NCBI GenBank assembly: GCA_011523395.1
Contig: WTGW01000176.1
Coordinates: 1-56,941 of the forward strand
Length of the DNA: 56,941 nt
Origin: Acidimicrobiia bacterium
GTDB taxonomy: Bacteria; Actinomycetota; Acidimicrobiia; Spongiisociales; Spongiisociaceae
Direction of reading: 5' to 3'
The notes beneath the pieces were generated by a model. It was not told the DNA's origin. It saw nothing but the letters and a program-made list of their open reading frames with translations, and did no database searches. Of this stretch, positions 226-9,161 are shown piece after piece. Numbering within the stretch: position 1 is the first letter of the stretch; every line of letters starts with the position of its first letter. The position numbers and the translations under genes are program-made.

Positions 226-334
226 CTGGGTGCTGTTCGGCTACCTGGTCGCCTACGGGGCCCTGGTGGTCTACGCCGGTCACCAGGCCCACCGCATCAG
301 GCGGGCACGCCGGCTGCTGCCCCCGGAGACATGA
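215..334 (+). CDS. ccmD: CcmD-like small membrane protein (39 aa), not in the ORF track
   Basis: ATG at 215, TGA at 332-334: MAGSWVLFGYLVAYGALVVYAGHQAHRIRRARRLLPPET. One TM helix then a basic tail; sits between ccmC and ccmE and overlaps the ccmE start by 4 nt. Confidence 0.65.
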   Translation: MAGSWVLFGYLVAYGALVVYAGHQAHRIRRARRLLPPET

Positions 335-750
335 ACCGCCGCCACGTCCTGATCCCGGCCGGGGTGCTCCTGGCGATCGTGGTCGGCTTCCTGGTGTGGG
401 GAGGCATCACGGACAACGTCGTCTACTACCTGACACCCTCGGAGGCGGTCGACCAGCGGGCCGACCAGGAACCCGGCTACCGGTTCCGTCTGGGAGGACT
501 GGTCGAGGCGGACTGGCTCGAGGGTACCGATGACGGGGTCCGGTTCATGGTCGGGGACGGCGCCGTCTCGATAGCCGTCGAGCACGCCGGCACCGTGCCC
601 CAACTGTTCCGCCCCGGGATCGGAGTGGTCGTCGAGGGGGCCTGGGAGGGAGACATGTTCCGGTCGGACACCCTGCTGATCAACCATGACGAGCAGTACC
701 GGGCCGTGGACGGCGAGGGAACCTACCAGGTACCGACCGCCGGGTCATGA
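331..750 (+). CDS. ccmE: Cytochrome c maturation heme chaperone CcmE
   Basis: N-terminal TM anchor, OB-fold-like body, HDEQY heme-attachment His/Tyr motif; ccm operon context. Confidence 0.85.
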   Translation: MNRRHVLIPAGVLLAIVVGFLVWGGITDNVVYYLTPSEAVDQRADQEPGYRFRLGGLVEADWLEGTDDGVRFMVGDGAVSIAVEHAGTVPQLFRPGIGVVVEGAWEGDMFRSDTLLINHDEQYRAVDGEGTYQVPTAGS

Positions 751-2774
751 TCGCCTGGCTGGGACTCGGCTCGATCCTGGTCGCCCTCGGAGCGGCCCTG
801 GTGGTGGCGTGGAGGGGGCTTCCCGCCCTGGCGGGTCGGGGCTCCGTCCCGATGGAGCGGATGAGGGGTCCCGTGCTGTGGCTCCTCGGCGGAGCGGCGG
901 CGGCCATGCTGGTGCTGGAGATCGGCCTCCTGGCCGGCGACTTCTCCATCGCCTACATCGCCAACAACCACCGGGCCGGAACCCCGTTGATCTTCACCAT
1001 CGCGGCCGGATGGGCCGCGCTCGAGGGTTCGATCGTCCTGTGGGGGCTGGTGCTGGCGGCCTTCACCGGAGCGGTCTTCCGAGCCCTGTACCGGCGCGAC
1101 CACCCGCTGGCCGGAGGAACCCTGTCGGTGCTGGGGATGATGGCCGCCTTCTGGTTCGGTCTGATGGCCACGGTCGCCAACCCCTTCGCGGTCTGCATCG
1201 CCGCGGCCGACACCGCCGGGTGCGCCCTGTCGGGTTGGGCGCCCTGGTCGGCCGTGGACCTTCCCGGCGCCGGCCGGGGGGCGAATCCGCTCCTCCAGAA
1301 CCACATCCTGATGGCGGTCCATCCGCCCGTCCTGTACGTGGGGTATGTCGGGTTCTCGGTGCCGTTCGCGGTAGGGATCGCCTCGCTGGCCGCCGCCGAC
1401 CACCAAGAGACCTGGCTCCGCACCACCCGTACCTGGACGCTGACCGCCTGGGGGTTCCTGACCACCGGCATCGTGCTGGGCGCCTGGTGGAGCTACGAGG
1501 TGCTGGGCTGGGGCGGGTACTGGGCCTGGGATCCGGTCGAGAACGCCTCCTTCATCCCGTGGTTGCTGGCCACCGCCTTCATCCACTCGTCAGTGGTCCA
1601 GATGCGGCGGGGCGTTCTCCAGTCCTGGAACTACGTGCTCGTGATCGGCGCCTTCGCAGCCACCATCCTCGGGACCTTCCTGACCCGCTCGGGCGTGATC
1701 GCCTCGGTGCACAGCTTCACCCAGTCGTCCATCGGCCCCGTCCTGCTGGCGTTCCTGGCGGTGGTCCTGGCCGGGTCCCTGGCCCTGTTCGCCGCCCGCA
1801 TCCACCTGGTGGGCAGCGCTCCCCGTCTCGACTCGCTCGCCAGCCGTGAGGGCGCCTTCCTCCTCAACAACCTGCTCCTGGCGGTGTTCGCCTTCGTGGT
1901 CCTGTCGGGCACCCTGTTCCCGCTGGCCGTGGAAGCCTTCCAGGGAAACACCGTGGGCGTGGGCCGGCCGTTCTTCGACCGGTGGGCGGTGCCGCTCTCC
2001 TACTGCCTGATCCTGGCCATGGGCATCGGCCCCATCACGCCGTTCCGGGTGGCGCGCGCCCGGGTTTTGTGGGAGCGGGTACGCACGCCGATGCGGATCG
2101 CCCTGGGACTGGCGGCCCTGCTGGTGCTCCTGGTGAGCCGCAACCGGCACGTGATCGTGGTGGTGCTGCTGGCGGCGTTCGTGGTCTCGACCATCGCCAG
2201 GCACCTTGTCATGCTGGTCCGCAGGCGCGCCACCGCAACGGGCCAGGGATCGATCGCCGCGGCGGGGACCCTGATGAGGCGTGATCCCGGCTACTGGGGC
2301 GGGCAGATCTCCCATGTCGGCGTGGCGATCCTGGCGGTGGGGATCGCGGTCTCGGCCAACCTCGCCAGCTCGGGGTCCATCGCCCTGAGCCCCGGCGAGA
2401 CCGCTCCGTTCGCCGGCTACGAGATCTCCTACCGGACCCCGTTCTCGCGCGCCGAGCCGAACCGGGATGTCCTAGGCGTCCGCCTGGACGTGTCGCGAAA
2501 CGGCCAGGCGGTGACCGTGATGTCCCCGAGCCTCAACAGCTACGGCAACGGCGTCCCCCCGGTGGTCACCCCCGCGGTGTACTCGACGCCCCGGGGAGAC
2601 CTGTACGTCTCGCTCACCCGGCTCGACAGCTCGGGGATGGTGGCCGATGTGTGGAGCTACCCGCTCCAGTGGATGGTGTGGCTGGGCGGGCTGGTGACGG
2701 CGGCCGGAGCAGGCTTCTCGCTCTCGGCCGTGGCGGGACGGAGACGGCAGGCGGCGGGGGCCGGTCGTGGCTGA
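747..2774 (+). CDS. ccmF: Cytochrome c heme lyase subunit CcmF
   Basis: Many TM segments and the tryptophan-rich WWD-type motif WGGYWAWDPVENASF; operon context. Confidence 0.93.
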   Translation: MIAWLGLGSILVALGAALVVAWRGLPALAGRGSVPMERMRGPVLWLLGGAAAAMLVLEIGLLAGDFSIAYIANNHRAGTPLIFTIAAGWAALEGSIVLWGLVLAAFTGAVFRALYRRDHPLAGGTLSVLGMMAAFWFGLMATVANPFAVCIAAADTAGCALSGWAPWSAVDLPGAGRGANPLLQNHILMAVHPPVLYVGYVGFSVPFAVGIASLAAADHQETWLRTTRTWTLTAWGFLTTGIVLGAWWSYEVLGWGGYWAWDPVENASFIPWLLATAFIHSSVVQMRRGVLQSWNYVLVIGAFAATILGTFLTRSGVIASVHSFTQSSIGPVLLAFLAVVLAGSLALFAARIHLVGSAPRLDSLASREGAFLLNNLLLAVFAFVVLSGTLFPLAVEAFQGNTVGVGRPFFDRWAVPLSYCLILAMGIGPITPFRVARARVLWERVRTPMRIALGLAALLVLLVSRNRHVIVVVLLAAFVVSTIARHLVMLVRRRATATGQGSIAAAGTLMRRDPGYWGGQISHVGVAILAVGIAVSANLASSGSIALSPGETAPFAGYEISYRTPFSRAEPNRDVLGVRLDVSRNGQAVTVMSPSLNSYGNGVPPVVTPAVYSTPRGDLYVSLTRLDSSGMVADVWSYPLQWMVWLGGLVTAAGAGFSLSAVAGRRRQAAGAGRG

Positions 2775-3165
2775 CCGCCGCGCCATCCTCGCCAGCGCCG
2801 CCACCCTGATCCTGGCCGGGATCGTCGGGTGGGGCCTGGTGGTCGGCGAGCCAAGCGAACGTGATCGGGTGGAGGCGCTCGGCGCCCGAATCCGGTGCCC
2901 GGTCTGCCAGGGGGAGTCGGTAGCAGACTCACCCACCCCGTATGCCAACGACATCCTGGGGTTCGTGGAGGAAAAGGTGGGCGAGGGTTGGAGCGACGAG
3001 CAGATACTGGACTACCTGGAGGCCAGGTTCGAGGGCATCCGGCTGGATCCCCGCTTCTCGGGCACCACGGTGCTGCTCTGGGTACTGCCGGCCGGCGTGG
3101 CCGCGGCCGGCGCCTGGCTGGCCTTCCGGCGGCTGATCCGGCGACCGGATCCTGCCGATGGGTGA
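2767..3165 (+). CDS. ccmH: Cytochrome c maturation protein CcmH/CycL
   Basis: Conserved RCPVCQGES redox motif and C-terminal TM segment. Confidence 0.9.
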   Translation: MADRRAILASAATLILAGIVGWGLVVGEPSERDRVEALGARIRCPVCQGESVADSPTPYANDILGFVEEKVGEGWSDEQILDYLEARFEGIRLDPRFSGTTVLLWVLPAGVAAAGAWLAFRRLIRRPDPADG

Positions 3166-3931
3166 AGGGCCGCCGGTGAGCCGCCTCCGGGCCGTGGTCG
3201 AGGCGGACATCCGGGACGTACGCCGGCAACTGGACGAGGGGGAACTCGACGCCGCCACCGCCCGGCAGCTGATCGAGAGGTACCGGCGGGAGCTGGAGTC
3301 CGTCGAGGCCGGGACGGAGGCCGGAGCCCCCGAGCCGGCGCCGCCAGCGCGGTCCGGGCGCCGCCTGACGGGGACGTTGCTCCTGATCGGCGCCGTGATC
3401 GTGGTGTCGGTGACCGCCTACCTGGCGATCCGGCCGCGAGAAGGCGGGTTCGTGACCGGCAGCGTGGAAACGCCGGTGGACCTCTCCGAGGTGACCAACG
3501 ACCAGATGGAAGCCGTCATCGCCGCCAACCCCGACGTGCCGGAGATCGCCGCCATGCGGCTCAGCCTGGCCGACCGGTACTTCGAGGCCGGGGAGTTCTC
3601 GAACGCCCTCCCCCACTACCTGGGCGCACTGGAGGGTGACCTCGACCGCACCCGCCGTTCCCGCGCCCTGGCGAGGATCGGTTGGATGACCTTCGAGTCC
3701 GGCGATGCCGGGATCGCCCGGTCCTACCTGGACGAAGCCCTGGCGGTCGATGATGGCTACGCGGAAGCGCATCTGTTCCTCGGGTTGCTGTTGCTGGCCG
3801 AGGGGGACGCAATCGGCGCGCTGGAACACCTGGAACCCTTGCTGGAGGAGGAGAACCTCCCCGAGGGGATCCGGGAGGCGATCGAGCTAACGATCGCCGA
3901 AGCCAGGCGGCTGGCGGAGGTCGGCGGATGA
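3158..3931 (+). CDS. CcmI/TPR-like cytochrome c maturation accessory protein
   Basis: N-terminal helical region, TM, then TPR-like repeats (YFEAGEFSNALPHYLGAL...); ccm operon position. Confidence 0.7.
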   Translation: MGEGPPVSRLRAVVEADIRDVRRQLDEGELDAATARQLIERYRRELESVEAGTEAGAPEPAPPARSGRRLTGTLLLIGAVIVVSVTAYLAIRPREGGFVTGSVETPVDLSEVTNDQMEAVIAANPDVPEIAAMRLSLADRYFEAGEFSNALPHYLGALEGDLDRTRRSRALARIGWMTFESGDAGIARSYLDEALAVDDGYAEAHLFLGLLLLAEGDAIGALEHLEPLLEEENLPEGIREAIELTIAEARRLAEVGG

Positions 3932-4527
3932 GTTCCCGGGGGCGCTACCTGCTGGTAGCCGGGCTGGTGGCCGTCGGCCTGGCGGTGGCCGTCTTCGCCG
4001 CCCGGTTCGGGGACGGCGCCGACCGGAGCGCCTCACCGGTCGTCGGCGCGCCGGTTCCCGACCTCACCCTCCCCTACCTGGACGGCAACGGTTCGTTGAA
4101 CCTGGCAGATCTGAGCGCCTCACACGACGTGGTGGTGGTCAACTTCTTCGCCTCCTGGTGCCTGCAATGCCGCAACGAGCACGCCGATCTGATCTCGACC
4201 GCCGACGCCTACCACGACCGATCGGTCCGGTTCCTGGGAGTCGCCTTCCAGGACGATCCCGCCCGCGCCACCGCTTTCCTGGACGAGTTGGGCCGGGGTG
4301 GCGCCACCCGGTACCTGTCCGATCCGGGCTCCCGCGCGGCCATCGAGTTCGGCATCTTCGGCGTCCCCGAGACCGTCTTCATCTCCGGCGGCGTCATCGT
4401 CGGTAAGTTCCTCGGCGAGTCCGACGCCCTCACCCTCACCGGAGCACTGGAGCAACTCCTATCCGGCCAGGCAATCGAGTCGAGGCAGGTGGGCGAGTTC
4501 CGCCAATCCCCACCAGACCGGGCATAG
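3928..4527 (+). CDS. CcmG/DsbE/TlpA-like thioredoxin-fold protein
   Basis: N-terminal TM, FFASWCLQCRNEH active site, operon position after ccmH/ccmI. Confidence 0.8.
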   Translation: MSSRGRYLLVAGLVAVGLAVAVFAARFGDGADRSASPVVGAPVPDLTLPYLDGNGSLNLADLSASHDVVVVNFFASWCLQCRNEHADLISTADAYHDRSVRFLGVAFQDDPARATAFLDELGRGGATRYLSDPGSRAAIEFGIFGVPETVFISGGVIVGKFLGESDALTLTGALEQLLSGQAIESRQVGEFRQSPPDRA

Positions 4528-4630: not shown

Positions 4631-7171
4631 ATGGAGTCCCGATTCCGTGTCCGTTGCCTTGGGTTCCTGGGGGCTTCGGTGGCCATCATCGCCCTAGCGA
4701 GTTGTGGCGACGACTCGCCGCAGGAGCCAACTCCCACAACCGCGAGCATCACGACGACTAGTCCGACCAGCACGACCACGACTTCTAGCACCACAACCGC
4801 TCCGGGCAGCACGACGACAGCGCCATCCGAGACCACGAGAGCTACCGCCGACTTCGATGTCAGCGTGGATGCGGACACCGAATGGGGAGAGGTGTTCGAC
4901 GCTCTCACCACCACCGAGCAGGAGTGCGTCCGAGACTCGTTCGAGGGCGACCTACTGGAATCGGTGCTGGCCCGACCGGTGATGTCGGAGTCGGACACCC
5001 CGGAGGCGTGGGAGGTCTCGATGTTCTCCTGCCTCGCCCCCCAAACTGCCCGCGCCGTGTTCCTCGCCTTGCTGGTCGCAGGGATGGAAGAGGATGGGTT
5101 GTTCCTGATTGACGCGGATGCGAGGGTCTGCCTGAACGAGTGGGTGGCCGGGATCGATGTGGTTGCCACCATGGTGGCCCTGTCGGCTGATGACGCCGAG
5201 GCGGCAGGGGAAGTCACCACCGCGTTCATGAGGTGCAATCCGGATCTGTTCACATCACTGATGCTCGAGGAGACCGGACTGACCCTCGACGACCTCAGCG
5301 AGGAAGAAGCAACCTGCCTCCGGGAATGGGCAGCCGACACCGACTGGGCAACGCTCCTCGCCGGAGACGACCTCGCGCTTCTCGGCGACTTCCTCCCCGA
5401 CCTGATCGCATGCGCCCCCGACATGTTCATCTCATCCATGATCGAGGACACCGGACTGACCCTCGAAGACCTCAGCGAGGAAGAAGCAACCTGCCTCCGG
5501 GAATGGGCAGCCGACACCGACTGGGCAACGCTCCTCGCCGGAGACGACTTCGCGGTCCTCGTGGACTTCCTCCCCGACCTGTTCTCATGCGCCCCCGACA
5601 TGTTCATTGCCTCCATACTCGAGGACACCGGTCTGACCCTCGAAGACCTCAGCGAGGAAGAGGCAACCTGCCTCCGGGAATGGGTGACCGACTTCGACTG
5701 GGCAACCCTCTTCACTGGCTTCGCCGACGACTCCTTGTATCTGTTCGAGCTGCTGGAGTGCGTGCCCGACCTATCGTGGTCGGATCCCGGTGACCTGCCT
5801 TGGGGCCAGGTGATCGAGGAGGCAACACCCATCGGGATCGGTGTGGCATTCCAGGGCGAGTTGGACCTCGAAGGCGCCGGCGACTACTTCACCTTCGAGG
5901 CCGAACAAGGCGACTTCTACCAACTGGACGTGACCCTCGGCACTCTCGAAGACTCCGTACTGGACCTATATGACGCCGACGGCACCTGGCTGGACAGCAA
6001 CGACGACTATGGCGAAACAACCGCGTCGCGGCTCGTGTGGGACGCACCCGGCACAGGCACCTACTACGTCCAAGTGACCAGCTTTGGCACCGGCACCGGC
6101 ACCTACACGCTCACGATCTCAGGCATCACGGACGACCATGCGAATTCGGCAGCCAACGCAGTACGGGTCGATGTCGGACTGGCCGCCCGAGGCGCGATCG
6201 ACTACGAAGGCGACGGCGACTATTTCGCCTTCGCGGCTGAAGAAGGCGAGCTCTACCAACTGGACGTGACACTCGGAACACTCGAAGACTCTGTGCTTGA
6301 CATCTTCGACACCTACGGCATCTGGCTGGACGGCAACGACGACTCCGCCGAGTCCTCAGCCTCCCGGCTCTACTGGACCGCACCCGGCACAGGCACCTAC
6401 TACGTACGGGTGACCGGCTTCGACGTCGGCACCGGCACCTACACCCTCACCATCGCCCTTTCGGACATCGTGGACGATCACCCCGATTCGACCGCCGACG
6501 CAACACCCGTGGAGATCGGAGTGGACACCCATGGCGCCATTGACTACGAAGGCGACAGGGACTACTTCGCCTTCGAAGCGACGGCCGGCGAGTACTACCA
6601 GCTGGACGTGACCCTCGGAACTCTCGATGACTCCATACTCGAACTGTTCGACGCCGACGGGATCTGGCTGGACGCTAACGACGACTCCGCCGAGTCCACA
6701 GCCTCCCGGCTCATCTGGCTCGCACCCGGCACAGGCACCTACTACGTCCAGGTAGCCAGCTTCCGCACCGGCACCGGCACCGGCACCTACACCCTCACCA
6801 TCGCCATCTCAGACATCGTGGACGACCACCCGAATTCGGCAGAAAACGCAACACCCGTCGAGATCGGTGTGTCCGCACCGGGCGAATTGGAGTACGAAGA
6901 CGACAGTGACTTCTTCGCCTTCGAAGCGACGGCCAGCGAGTACTACGAACTCGACGTAACCCTCGGAACCCTTCAAGACTCCGTACTGGACCTATACGAC
7001 GCCGACGGCACCTGGCTGGACAGCAACGACGACTACGGCGACTCGACAGCGTCCCGGCTCATATGGTTGGCGCCGAGCACAGGCACCTACTACGTCGAAG
7101 TAACCGGCTTCGTAACCAGCTTCGGCTCGGGCACCGGCACCTACACCCTCACCATCGCCACCGCCCTGTAA
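4631..7171 (+). CDS. Large secreted lipoprotein with Thr/Ser-rich linker, tandem 59-aa Cys-containing repeats and about four PPC-like (bacterial pre-peptidase C-terminal) beta domains
   Basis: Lipobox-like ALASCGDD, Thr-rich linker, three (T/S)GLTLxDLSEEEATCLREW units, four DYFxFEAxxGxxYQLDVTLGTL...GTGTYYVxV...YTLTI units. Confidence 0.75.
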   Translation: MESRFRVRCLGFLGASVAIIALASCGDDSPQEPTPTTASITTTSPTSTTTTSSTTTAPGSTTTAPSETTRATADFDVSVDADTEWGEVFDALTTTEQECVRDSFEGDLLESVLARPVMSESDTPEAWEVSMFSCLAPQTARAVFLALLVAGMEEDGLFLIDADARVCLNEWVAGIDVVATMVALSADDAEAAGEVTTAFMRCNPDLFTSLMLEETGLTLDDLSEEEATCLREWAADTDWATLLAGDDLALLGDFLPDLIACAPDMFISSMIEDTGLTLEDLSEEEATCLREWAADTDWATLLAGDDFAVLVDFLPDLFSCAPDMFIASILEDTGLTLEDLSEEEATCLREWVTDFDWATLFTGFADDSLYLFELLECVPDLSWSDPGDLPWGQVIEEATPIGIGVAFQGELDLEGAGDYFTFEAEQGDFYQLDVTLGTLEDSVLDLYDADGTWLDSNDDYGETTASRLVWDAPGTGTYYVQVTSFGTGTGTYTLTISGITDDHANSAANAVRVDVGLAARGAIDYEGDGDYFAFAAEEGELYQLDVTLGTLEDSVLDIFDTYGIWLDGNDDSAESSASRLYWTAPGTGTYYVRVTGFDVGTGTYTLTIALSDIVDDHPDSTADATPVEIGVDTHGAIDYEGDRDYFAFEATAGEYYQLDVTLGTLDDSILELFDADGIWLDANDDSAESTASRLIWLAPGTGTYYVQVASFRTGTGTGTYTLTIAISDIVDDHPNSAENATPVEIGVSAPGELEYEDDSDFFAFEATASEYYELDVTLGTLQDSVLDLYDADGTWLDSNDDYGDSTASRLIWLAPSTGTYYVEVTGFVTSFGSGTGTYTLTIATAL
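5281..5811 (+). repeat. 177-bp (59-codon) tandem repeat, three copies, inside the 4631-7171 gene
   Basis: GACCCTCGA(C/A)GACCTCAGCGAGGAAGA(A/G)GCAACCTGCCTCCGGGAATGGG starts at 5281, 5458 and 5635 (exact 177-bp spacing). Confidence 0.85.
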
Positions 7172-7921
7172 CTACGACAGGGCGTCCGTGATGGCTTGGC
7201 GGAGCTCCTGCTCGGGGATGGAACCGAACCAGCGGTTGACCTCTACGCCGCCCACCGCGAACACCCCCACCGGCTGATAGGTCACCTCGAAGTCGGCGAA
7301 CACCGAATCGTCCAGCAGCCAGCGGGTGGCCCCCGAGGTGAGGAAACCGCGGGCGGCGGAGGCGGTCTTCTCGTACGTCGAAGCCCAGGCGATCGCGATC
7401 ACATCCACCTGGCCGGCGAACTCGGCGGCCACAGAATCGACGACGGGCAACTCCCGTCGGCATGTCGGTCACCACTCCGCCCAGAACAGGTAGAGGACGG
7501 GCTTGGTGGCTTCGGTCGTGACGAACGTAGTCCCGTCGTCCAGTTCCAGGGTTAGGGCCGGGATGGGAGGGCCCTCGGGAACGGCGGCTGGTGCGGTGAC
7601 CGCAGTCGTCTCCGGAGCAGCGGTGGGTTCCGGGGCGACGGTAGTTTCCGTAACTGCAGTCGTCTCCGGAGTGGCGGCAGGCTCCGTCGCCACGGTCGTC
7701 TCGGGGGCGGCCGCGGTCGTGGGGGACTCGGCGGGCGAGTCCGCTGCGGTGGAGCTGGGAGCTTCGGCTACGGCTGTTGTGGCTGCCGGAGTGGTGACCG
7801 CCGAGGTGGTGGCCGGCTCCGCCGGCTCCGGTGTGGCCTGCTCGCCCGAGCCGCCTCCACATCCCCCTACGGCGATCACGGCGGCCAGGACGGCGACCGC
7901 CACTCGATTGCGGTGTCTCAT
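7172..7921 (-). CDS. Candidate selenocysteine-containing thioredoxin/TlpA-like lipoprotein (UxxC active site); in-frame TGA at 7469-7471
   Basis: ORFs 7469-7921(-) and 7172-7450(-) are in the same frame; read through TGA gives ...PVLYLFWAEW-U-PTCRRELPVVDSVAAEF..., with UGA at the first Cys of a WCxxC motif. Lipobox-like VGGC at the N-terminus, then an Ala/Thr-rich linker. Confidence 0.8.
7441..7459 (-). promoter_or_regulatory. Candidate bacterial SECIS hairpin downstream of the in-frame UGA
   Basis: mRNA-sense CGACGGG-AGUUG-CCCGUCG: perfect 7-bp stem, 5-nt loop with G at position 2; apical loop begins after 16 nt from the UGA. Confidence 0.65.
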
Positions 7922-7995: not shown

Positions 7996-9030
7996 TCAGT
8001 CCCCGGCCAGCTCCCGGCTCCGGGCCACCACCCTGTCGAGAACGTCGCCGGCCGCGCCGCTGTCGATCGACTCGGCCGCCACGGAAACCCCTTCGGCCAG
8101 GTCGTCCGTACGGCCGGATGCGGCTATGGCGGCTGCCGCGTTCAGCAGGGAGACATCCCGGCAGGGACCGGGCTCTCCTTCCAGGACTCGGCGGGTGATG
8201 CCCGCGTTCACCTCGGCCGTTCCCCCCAGGAGGTCGGAAACGGGCGCCGGTCCCAGACCCACGTCTCGGGGCGACACCTCGGTTCTGGACACCCGGCCTC
8301 CGTCAAGCTGCCAGACCACGGAAGGACCGCTCAGGGTGAGCTCGTCCAAACCGTCCGAGCCGTGGAACACGAGGGCTCGCTCCGAGCCCCGGAGGCTCAG
8401 CACCCGGACCATGCGCTCCGCCATGCGCCCATCCGCCACACCTAGCGCGTACTTCCGCACCCCGGCCGGATTGCTCAGCGGACCCAGGAAGTTGAAGACC
8501 GTGGGAATGCCGAGCTCCTGGCGGACCGGTCCGGCGAAGCGCATTGCCGGGTGGTAGACCGGCGCCAGGAAGAAGGCGTAGCCCGCATCCATGAACAACC
8601 GGCGGTTCCTATCGGGTGGCAGGTCGATGACCACGCCGAGGGCTTCCAGCACGTCTGCCGAGCCGCACTTGGACGACATCGATCGGTTGCCGTGCTTGGC
8701 GATCGGTATGCCGGCGCCGGCCGCTACGAAGGAGGCGGTGGTGGAGATGTTGAAGGTACCGGAGCGATCGCCTCCTGTTCCCACTATGTCCACGGGATCG
8801 GCGTCGCCCAGGTCGACCCGGACCGCCGCCTCCACCATGCCGTCGACCAGGCCGCCCATCTCCTCTACCGTCTCTCCCTTGATGCGGAGCGCCACGATCA
8901 GGCCGGCGATCTGGGCAGGAGAGGCAAGGCCGCCCATCACCTGGCACATGGCCTGGCGGGCCTGGGCGCGACTCAGGTCGCCACCCTGGGAGATGGTTCC
9001 CAGCACCTCCGGCCAGGAGAATTCCGTCAT
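7996..9030 (-). CDS. trpD: Anthranilate phosphoribosyltransferase
   Basis: DIVGTGGDRSGTFNISTTASFVAAGAGIPIAKHGNRSMSSKCGSADVLEALG signature; start chosen at MTEFSWPEVL. Confidence 0.93.
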   Translation of the reverse strand: MTEFSWPEVLGTISQGGDLSRAQARQAMCQVMGGLASPAQIAGLIVALRIKGETVEEMGGLVDGMVEAAVRVDLGDADPVDIVGTGGDRSGTFNISTTASFVAAGAGIPIAKHGNRSMSSKCGSADVLEALGVVIDLPPDRNRRLFMDAGYAFFLAPVYHPAMRFAGPVRQELGIPTVFNFLGPLSNPAGVRKYALGVADGRMAERMVRVLSLRGSERALVFHGSDGLDELTLSGPSVVWQLDGGRVSRTEVSPRDVGLGPAPVSDLLGGTAEVNAGITRRVLEGEPGPCRDVSLLNAAAAIAASGRTDDLAEGVSVAAESIDSGAAGDVLDRVVARSRELAGD

Positions 9031-9161
9031 GGCGCGAAGCTTATCAGTGGTCCGTCCTCCCTCAACGGGCGAGATCCGCATGACACCCTAAGTTCCGGCG
9101 GAACGGTTGACCCGAACGCGGAAGGTACGGGGCCGGGAGAAGGTAACCGACCCCGTACCTC

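Follow-up and report, generated by a model that had tools for sequence, protein, structure and literature searches.

Two open reading frames on the minus strand of the window (the whole 56,941-nt stretch of DNA that we analysed), 7469-7921(-) and 7172-7450(-), lie in one shared frame and are split by an in-frame TGA at 7469-7471. The start of the second, at 7450, is the first TTG past the TGA, and the coding frame runs unbroken from 7921. When the TGA was read as selenocysteine (Sec, U), translation gave 249 residues ending at a TAG, with U as residue 151 in FWAEW-U-PTCRRELPVVD (in its wider context, PVLYLFWAEW-U-PTCRRELPVVD). Read by eye, the translation begins with a signal sequence and a VGGC lipobox and continues through an Ala/Thr-rich linker into the domain (Table 1). 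The read-through translation thus bore out a first-pass annotation of this DNA, which had described two TGA-separated frames, a VGGC lipobox with an Ala/Thr-rich linker, and a UGA at the first active-site Cys: U opens a UxxC motif, and Cys aligns to U in homologues. The annotation had also anticipated that gene callers would truncate or split the protein, and calling with table 11 indeed stops at residue 150. The lipobox motif suggests that the protein is extracytoplasmic and membrane-anchored.

The convergent neighbour at 4631-7171(+) encodes a putative lipoprotein of 846 aa in which pre-peptidase C-terminal (PPC) domains are repeated, and related genes adjoin the candidate selenoprotein gene in several close relatives.

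Table 1. Features of the candidate selenoprotein gene and its neighbours in the window.
Feature	Position	Strand	Basis or remark
Candidate selenoprotein CDS, complete	7172..7921	-	ATG at 7921, TAG at 7172-7174; homologues align over the full length
Lipoprotein signal peptide, lipobox VGGC (Cys at 7859-7861)	7859..7921	-	Predicted from motif
Ala/Thr/Pro-rich low-complexity linker	7580..7858	-	Translation; length and sequence vary among relatives
Thioredoxin-fold (TlpA/ResA/redoxin-like) domain	7175..7579	-	Pfam, AlphaFold, Foldseek
Putative Sec UGA codon (residue 151) that opens the UxxC site	7469..7471	-	TGA in 94/101 matching genomes
Second active-site Cys of U-P-T-C	7460..7462	-	Invariant in all aligned rows
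bSECIS-like hairpin CGACGGG-AGUUG-CCCGUCG	7441..7459	-	Folding, model criteria, covariation
trpD	7996..9081	-	Upstream neighbour, same orientation; kept in many families of the order
ccmE, ccmF, ccmH, TPR gene, Cys-type CcmG/DsbE (FFASWCLQC)	331..4527	+	Convergent with the candidate selenoprotein gene

The TGA codon and the selenocysteine machinery

Were the TGA a real stop, the gene would be a pseudogene or encode a truncated 150-aa lipoprotein, and the frame downstream would be a remnant or an assembly error. TGA is normally a stop in the window's genome (G000; 239 contigs, 93% complete), and table 11 gene callers would end the gene there. Against this, the identical codon is TGA in 94 genomes. 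We found TGA at this codon in six of six relatives from GTDB-derived contigs (MAGs labelled Acidimicrobiia or just bacterium), and a domain profile run against 395 genomes of the class found a match in 101, and 94 of these have TGA. Nearly all of the 101 belong to the window's own order; when the search was extended to the phylum, strong matches were confined to the order and weaker ones, some with TGA, lay outside it. Purifying selection acts on the part that follows the UGA (dN/dS of ∼0.11 to 0.41 against genus- and family-level relatives), invariant residues occur there, and conservation past the UGA, where the first-pass annotation had seen a possible point of failure, continues across the order. 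Since the Sec machinery is intact and the downstream half completes the thioredoxin fold, and since order-wide conservation is a refutation in practice, we give the stop reading practically no credence. A pseudogene or assembly error was rejected on the conservation of the TGA across genomes.

It is also extremely improbable that read-through, whether genome-wide or near-cognate, places an ordinary Trp or Cys at the UGA. The frame is open and some relatives have Cys at the position, but at least six other genes in the window are terminated by TGA (ccmE, ccmF, ccmH, the TPR gene, trpD, and an aquaporin gene), a dedicated tRNA-Sec(UCA) is present with selA, selB, and selD, and the covarying hairpin beside the UGA would be superfluous for a reassigned codon. 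Because TGA is a normal stop for those six genes, the recoding would be site-specific rather than general; we accordingly rejected genome-wide recoding, which had been judged unlikely from the start.

All four components of the machinery that the first-pass annotation had proposed looking for (selA, selB, selC, and selD) were found in G000: selA on contig C140 (422.6 bits), selB adjoining it (319.4 bits in total), selD at C77:936-1856 (371.5 bits), and tRNA-Sec at C51:9911-10001 (anticodon TCA, that is UCA; 77 bits). The selD gene has its own in-frame TGA, reading GGGUASK, with a stable hairpin after it; this is the UxxK position known from Sec-containing SelD (motif from PMC13188914), and SelD is itself likely a selenoprotein, judging from these features. 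Three more AhpC/TSA-family genes in G000, each with a single in-frame TGA, are candidate selenoproteins: a peroxiredoxin-like gene with TRGU (TxxU) at C118:23518-23883, and two UxxC thioredoxin-like candidates at C123:3155-3505 (WAEWUPTCRAH) and C41:5144-5458 (SPFUETCREE).

Across the matching genomes, selA was present in 84/94 with the Sec form versus 1/5 with the Cys form (Fisher P = 0.0012, kinship ignored). The search for selA gave no match in the remaining 10 Sec-form genomes; five of these (G304, G315, G321, G343, and G373) are no more than 77% complete, and four of the 10 (G292, G234, G317, and G315) yielded a tRNA-Sec or selB. On computational grounds, the case for Sec decoding at this UGA is very strong.

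Two further observations concern the spread of the family. Some genomes of family f4, for example G264 (C31:66000-75000), carry the Sec TlpA-like gene three times in tandem, and every copy has a TGA and a hairpin region; three tandem copies were also noted for G237, G164, and G198. A remoter relative, from a different family of the class (G246:C4:4789-5181), has UxxC with TGA in FWAPSUPICRREAPVV.

The hairpin downstream of the UGA

A 7-bp hairpin (−11.6 kcal/mol) that fits the bacterial SECIS model begins 9 nt past the UGA, and its AGUUG loop, at 7448-7452, is spaced 16 nt from the UGA and has G as its second base. We took the bSECIS criteria from PMC13188914, with an energy cut-off of −7.5 kcal/mol plus a stem criterion. 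By all of these criteria a bSECIS was present in 72 of 83 U forms, compared to 1 of 10 Cys rows and 13.6% of control codon positions; the other 11 U-form hairpins miss the energy cut-off or the stem criterion, most of them narrowly (−7.0 to −7.2 kcal/mol). No family in Rfam matched the hairpin. In one of the tandem copies of G264 its register is shifted (CGGC-AGTT-GCCG).

The stem could in principle be conserved through protein constraint on CRRELPVV, with no RNA element. These residues are strongly conserved, and the energy of the hairpin beats that of shuffles only modestly (z = −2.2, 58-nt window). However, third positions are constrained as well (TTG/TTA Leu and CCC Pro), with the loop Leu codon being TTG or TTA in 76/83 U forms versus 21/220 elsewhere in the same genes, and the codons differ in Cys forms whose residues are similar. 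Core pairs are near-invariant in U forms and broken in Cys forms. Pair 14-30 varies, being G-C in 56 of the 83 distinct U forms, A-T in 19, T-A and C-G in 1 each, and a G-T wobble in 4. The variation is driven from residue +4, where Arg gives way to Gln, Lys, Leu, or Ser, and is matched in the third base of a Val codon. This base keeps step with the second base of the codon that lies five positions before it (C for R, T for Q/K, A for L, and G for S). In a permutation test on 29 unique stems, none of 100,000 shuffles reached the observed pairing. On supported branches of the tree, about five of six independent pairs pointed the same way and none the opposite way, for which the sign test by itself gives P = 0.0625. 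We therefore hold protein constraint by itself to be very improbable as an explanation of the stem, and we favor an RNA element. The search for a bSECIS downstream of the UGA, as the first-pass annotation had proposed, thus led to a hairpin that covaries and is lost in Cys forms.

Under this reading, the UGA would be decoded by tRNA-Sec(UCA), brought by SelB bound to the hairpin, while SelA and SelD would produce the Sec-tRNA from selenophosphate. After export, signal peptidase II would cut at the lipobox and leave a lipid-anchored protein whose long disordered linker may keep the domain away from the membrane. Sec151 would then be the nucleophile that attacks disulfides of the substrate, with Cys154 resolving the selenenyl-sulfide.

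Fold, kind of enzyme, and genomic context

Three Pfam families, PF08534 (Redoxin), PF00085 (Thioredoxin), and PF00578 (AhpC-TSA), scored above cut-off for the domain. An AlphaFold model of moderate confidence (pLDDT 72.8), in which the half downstream of the UGA completes the thioredoxin fold, was matched by Foldseek to DsbF, a Thermus thiol-disulfide isomerase, TlpA, ResA, and CcmG (among them 3ios, 3ia1, 4txv, and 1st9, each with probability 1.00), and a profile search of PDB sequences returned DsbF as the top match. The window protein thus has a thioredoxin fold with a WAxW(C/U)xxC active site. None of the curated NCBIfam families TIGR01068, TIGR00385, NF041054, and NF041057 reached its cut-off, the best score being 35.2 bits for TIGR01068 against a cut-off of 96.8. 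The motif, Pfam, and Foldseek results lend support to the earlier description of a UxxC oxidoreductase, an activity that is predicted.

Several Sec redoxins are peroxidases, and together with the AhpC-TSA and Redoxin matches this raises the alternative that the selenoprotein is a peroxidase or peroxiredoxin-like enzyme instead of a disulfide oxidoreductase. We consider this unlikely, because the active site has UxxC rather than TxxU, within the WAEW surroundings also seen in TlpA, ResA, and thioredoxin; because DsbF, ResA, TlpA, and thioredoxin came out best by fold and by sequence; and because the same genome encodes a separate TxxU peroxiredoxin candidate. We are nearly certain that the window gene encodes an exported, lipid-anchored thiol-disulfide oxidoreductase of the TlpA/ResA type with Sec as its nucleophile, the UGA being decoded through the hairpin and the Sec machinery.

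Its physiological role is perhaps extracytoplasmic thiol-disulfide exchange, which is less certain than the Sec reading. Given that the gene lies near the ccm cluster, our favored guess at a substrate would be apocytochrome c or Sco/CuA-type copper sites, as for TlpA; the ccm cluster is near the selenoprotein gene in several families. From the neighbourhood alone, a role in the redox maturation of cytochrome c or copper centers is plausible, and a point against a ccm-linked role is that the cluster already has a Cys-type CcmG. That protein (3928-4527), whose best NCBIfam match is TIGR00385 (E = 1.1e-21), belongs to the same superfamily as the candidate selenoprotein, but it is a CxxC member of the ccm cluster and is separated from the Sec family by a long, fully supported tree branch.

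In fold, active-site context, and placement as anchored or secreted oxidoreductases, the window family resembles TlpA (Bradyrhizobium), ResA (Bacillus), CcmG/DsbE, and DsbF (M. tuberculosis), all of which are CxxC whereas the predicted nucleophile here is Sec. With the UxxC Prx-like thiol:disulfide oxidoreductase, Redoxin family, and thiol-disulfide isomerase-like selenoproteins of PMC13188914 it shares Sec at the first position of UxxC and a TlpA/redoxin fold; it differs from those entries in being a lipoprotein with a long Ala/Thr linker, in its spread across one actinobacterial order, and in its near-invariant AGUUG-loop hairpin. NF041054 (ResA-like, WAxxUGC) and NF041057 (Rcas_1661 thioredoxin-like (seleno)lipoprotein) likewise describe Sec-containing exported thioredoxin-like proteins, but they gave the window protein 20.5 bits (cut-off 300) and 14.5 bits (cut-off 190), respectively, and its motif is UxxC, not UGC. 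Because no curated NCBIfam selenoprotein model reaches its cut-off, the window family is, by comparison with these models, a new subfamily of a kind already known, the UxxC TlpA/redoxin selenoproteins. Our search of the literature on selenoproteins in Acidimicrobiia found nothing relevant.

Cysteine forms within the order

The first-pass annotation had suggested looking in homologues for a Cys aligned to U, and such forms were seen. Five genomes have a Cys form and no Sec form: G148, G192, and G201, from one genus of family f4, and G026 and G251, from family f2. A further match, in G222 (WASWCVPC), has the look of an ordinary paralogue of the Cys TlpA type and was left out of this count. With the residues of the active site and the hairpin masked, the tree nested Cys forms within Sec clades in at least two places. 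A single clade of all five was rejected (p-AU = 0.0006), and for the two f2 forms as one event versus two p-AU was 0.376. Supported branches demand at least three state changes in the data set, one divergent Cys paralogue included.

Searches for selA, selB, and tRNA-Sec found none of the three in G148, G192, G026, and G251 (93 to 97% complete). All three are retained in G201, whose Cys form is on contig C64, and this genome is a possible intermediate in Sec loss. An apparent absence of tRNA-Sec from G022 and G001 had proved to be a threshold effect, both genomes having a tRNA-Sec(TCA) at 58 to 60 bits, so we rechecked the Cys-form genomes at 1e-7. This recheck gave 15 matches in total for the 11 genomes searched, which ARAGORN called as tRNA-Ser or tRNA-Leu and none as tRNA-Sec.

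The tRNA-Sec genes of G001 (C4:40768) and G022 (C1:1070443), both of family f2, score below the 68 to 77 bits seen elsewhere, and SelA matches in this family lack the first tens of model positions; f2 possibly has a divergent Sec synthesis pair of tRNA-Sec and SelA. In G001, an 88-nt tRNA-like gene at C2:139699-139786 is a tRNA-Trp(CCA) by ARAGORN, yet it reaches 50.8 bits on the tRNA-Sec model, over the cut-off.

The placement of Cys forms inside Sec clades is consistent with Sec-to-Cys reversal. An ancestral Cys form with many independent gains of Sec is unlikely, because each gain would have to rebuild the same stem and AGUUG loop. We think it probable that a Sec TlpA-type lipoprotein was ancestral across the order, was tandem-duplicated in some genera, and reverted to Cys independently at least twice, with selA, selB, and tRNA-Sec lost as well in four of the five Cys-form genomes. 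Published accounts call Sec-to-Cys reversal rare and place it mostly in FdhA and SelD (PMC1794560, PMC13188914), with only 15 events reported in four families, again mostly FdhA and SelD (PMC1794560).

A standard gene caller ends this protein at residue 150, and its active site is lost. Given that the same TGA is present throughout the order, mechanical use of table 11 would produce wrong annotations of a conserved exported redox enzyme. If the proposed history is true, nature has provided, in this order, a series of Sec-to-Cys reversals affecting one UxxC thiol oxidoreductase, from which the succession of events could be read, and an order-wide thiol oxidoreductase would join a record of reversal mostly confined to FdhA and SelD. 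The paired Sec and Cys forms in close relatives with and without the machinery would make the order in which Sec is lost testable.
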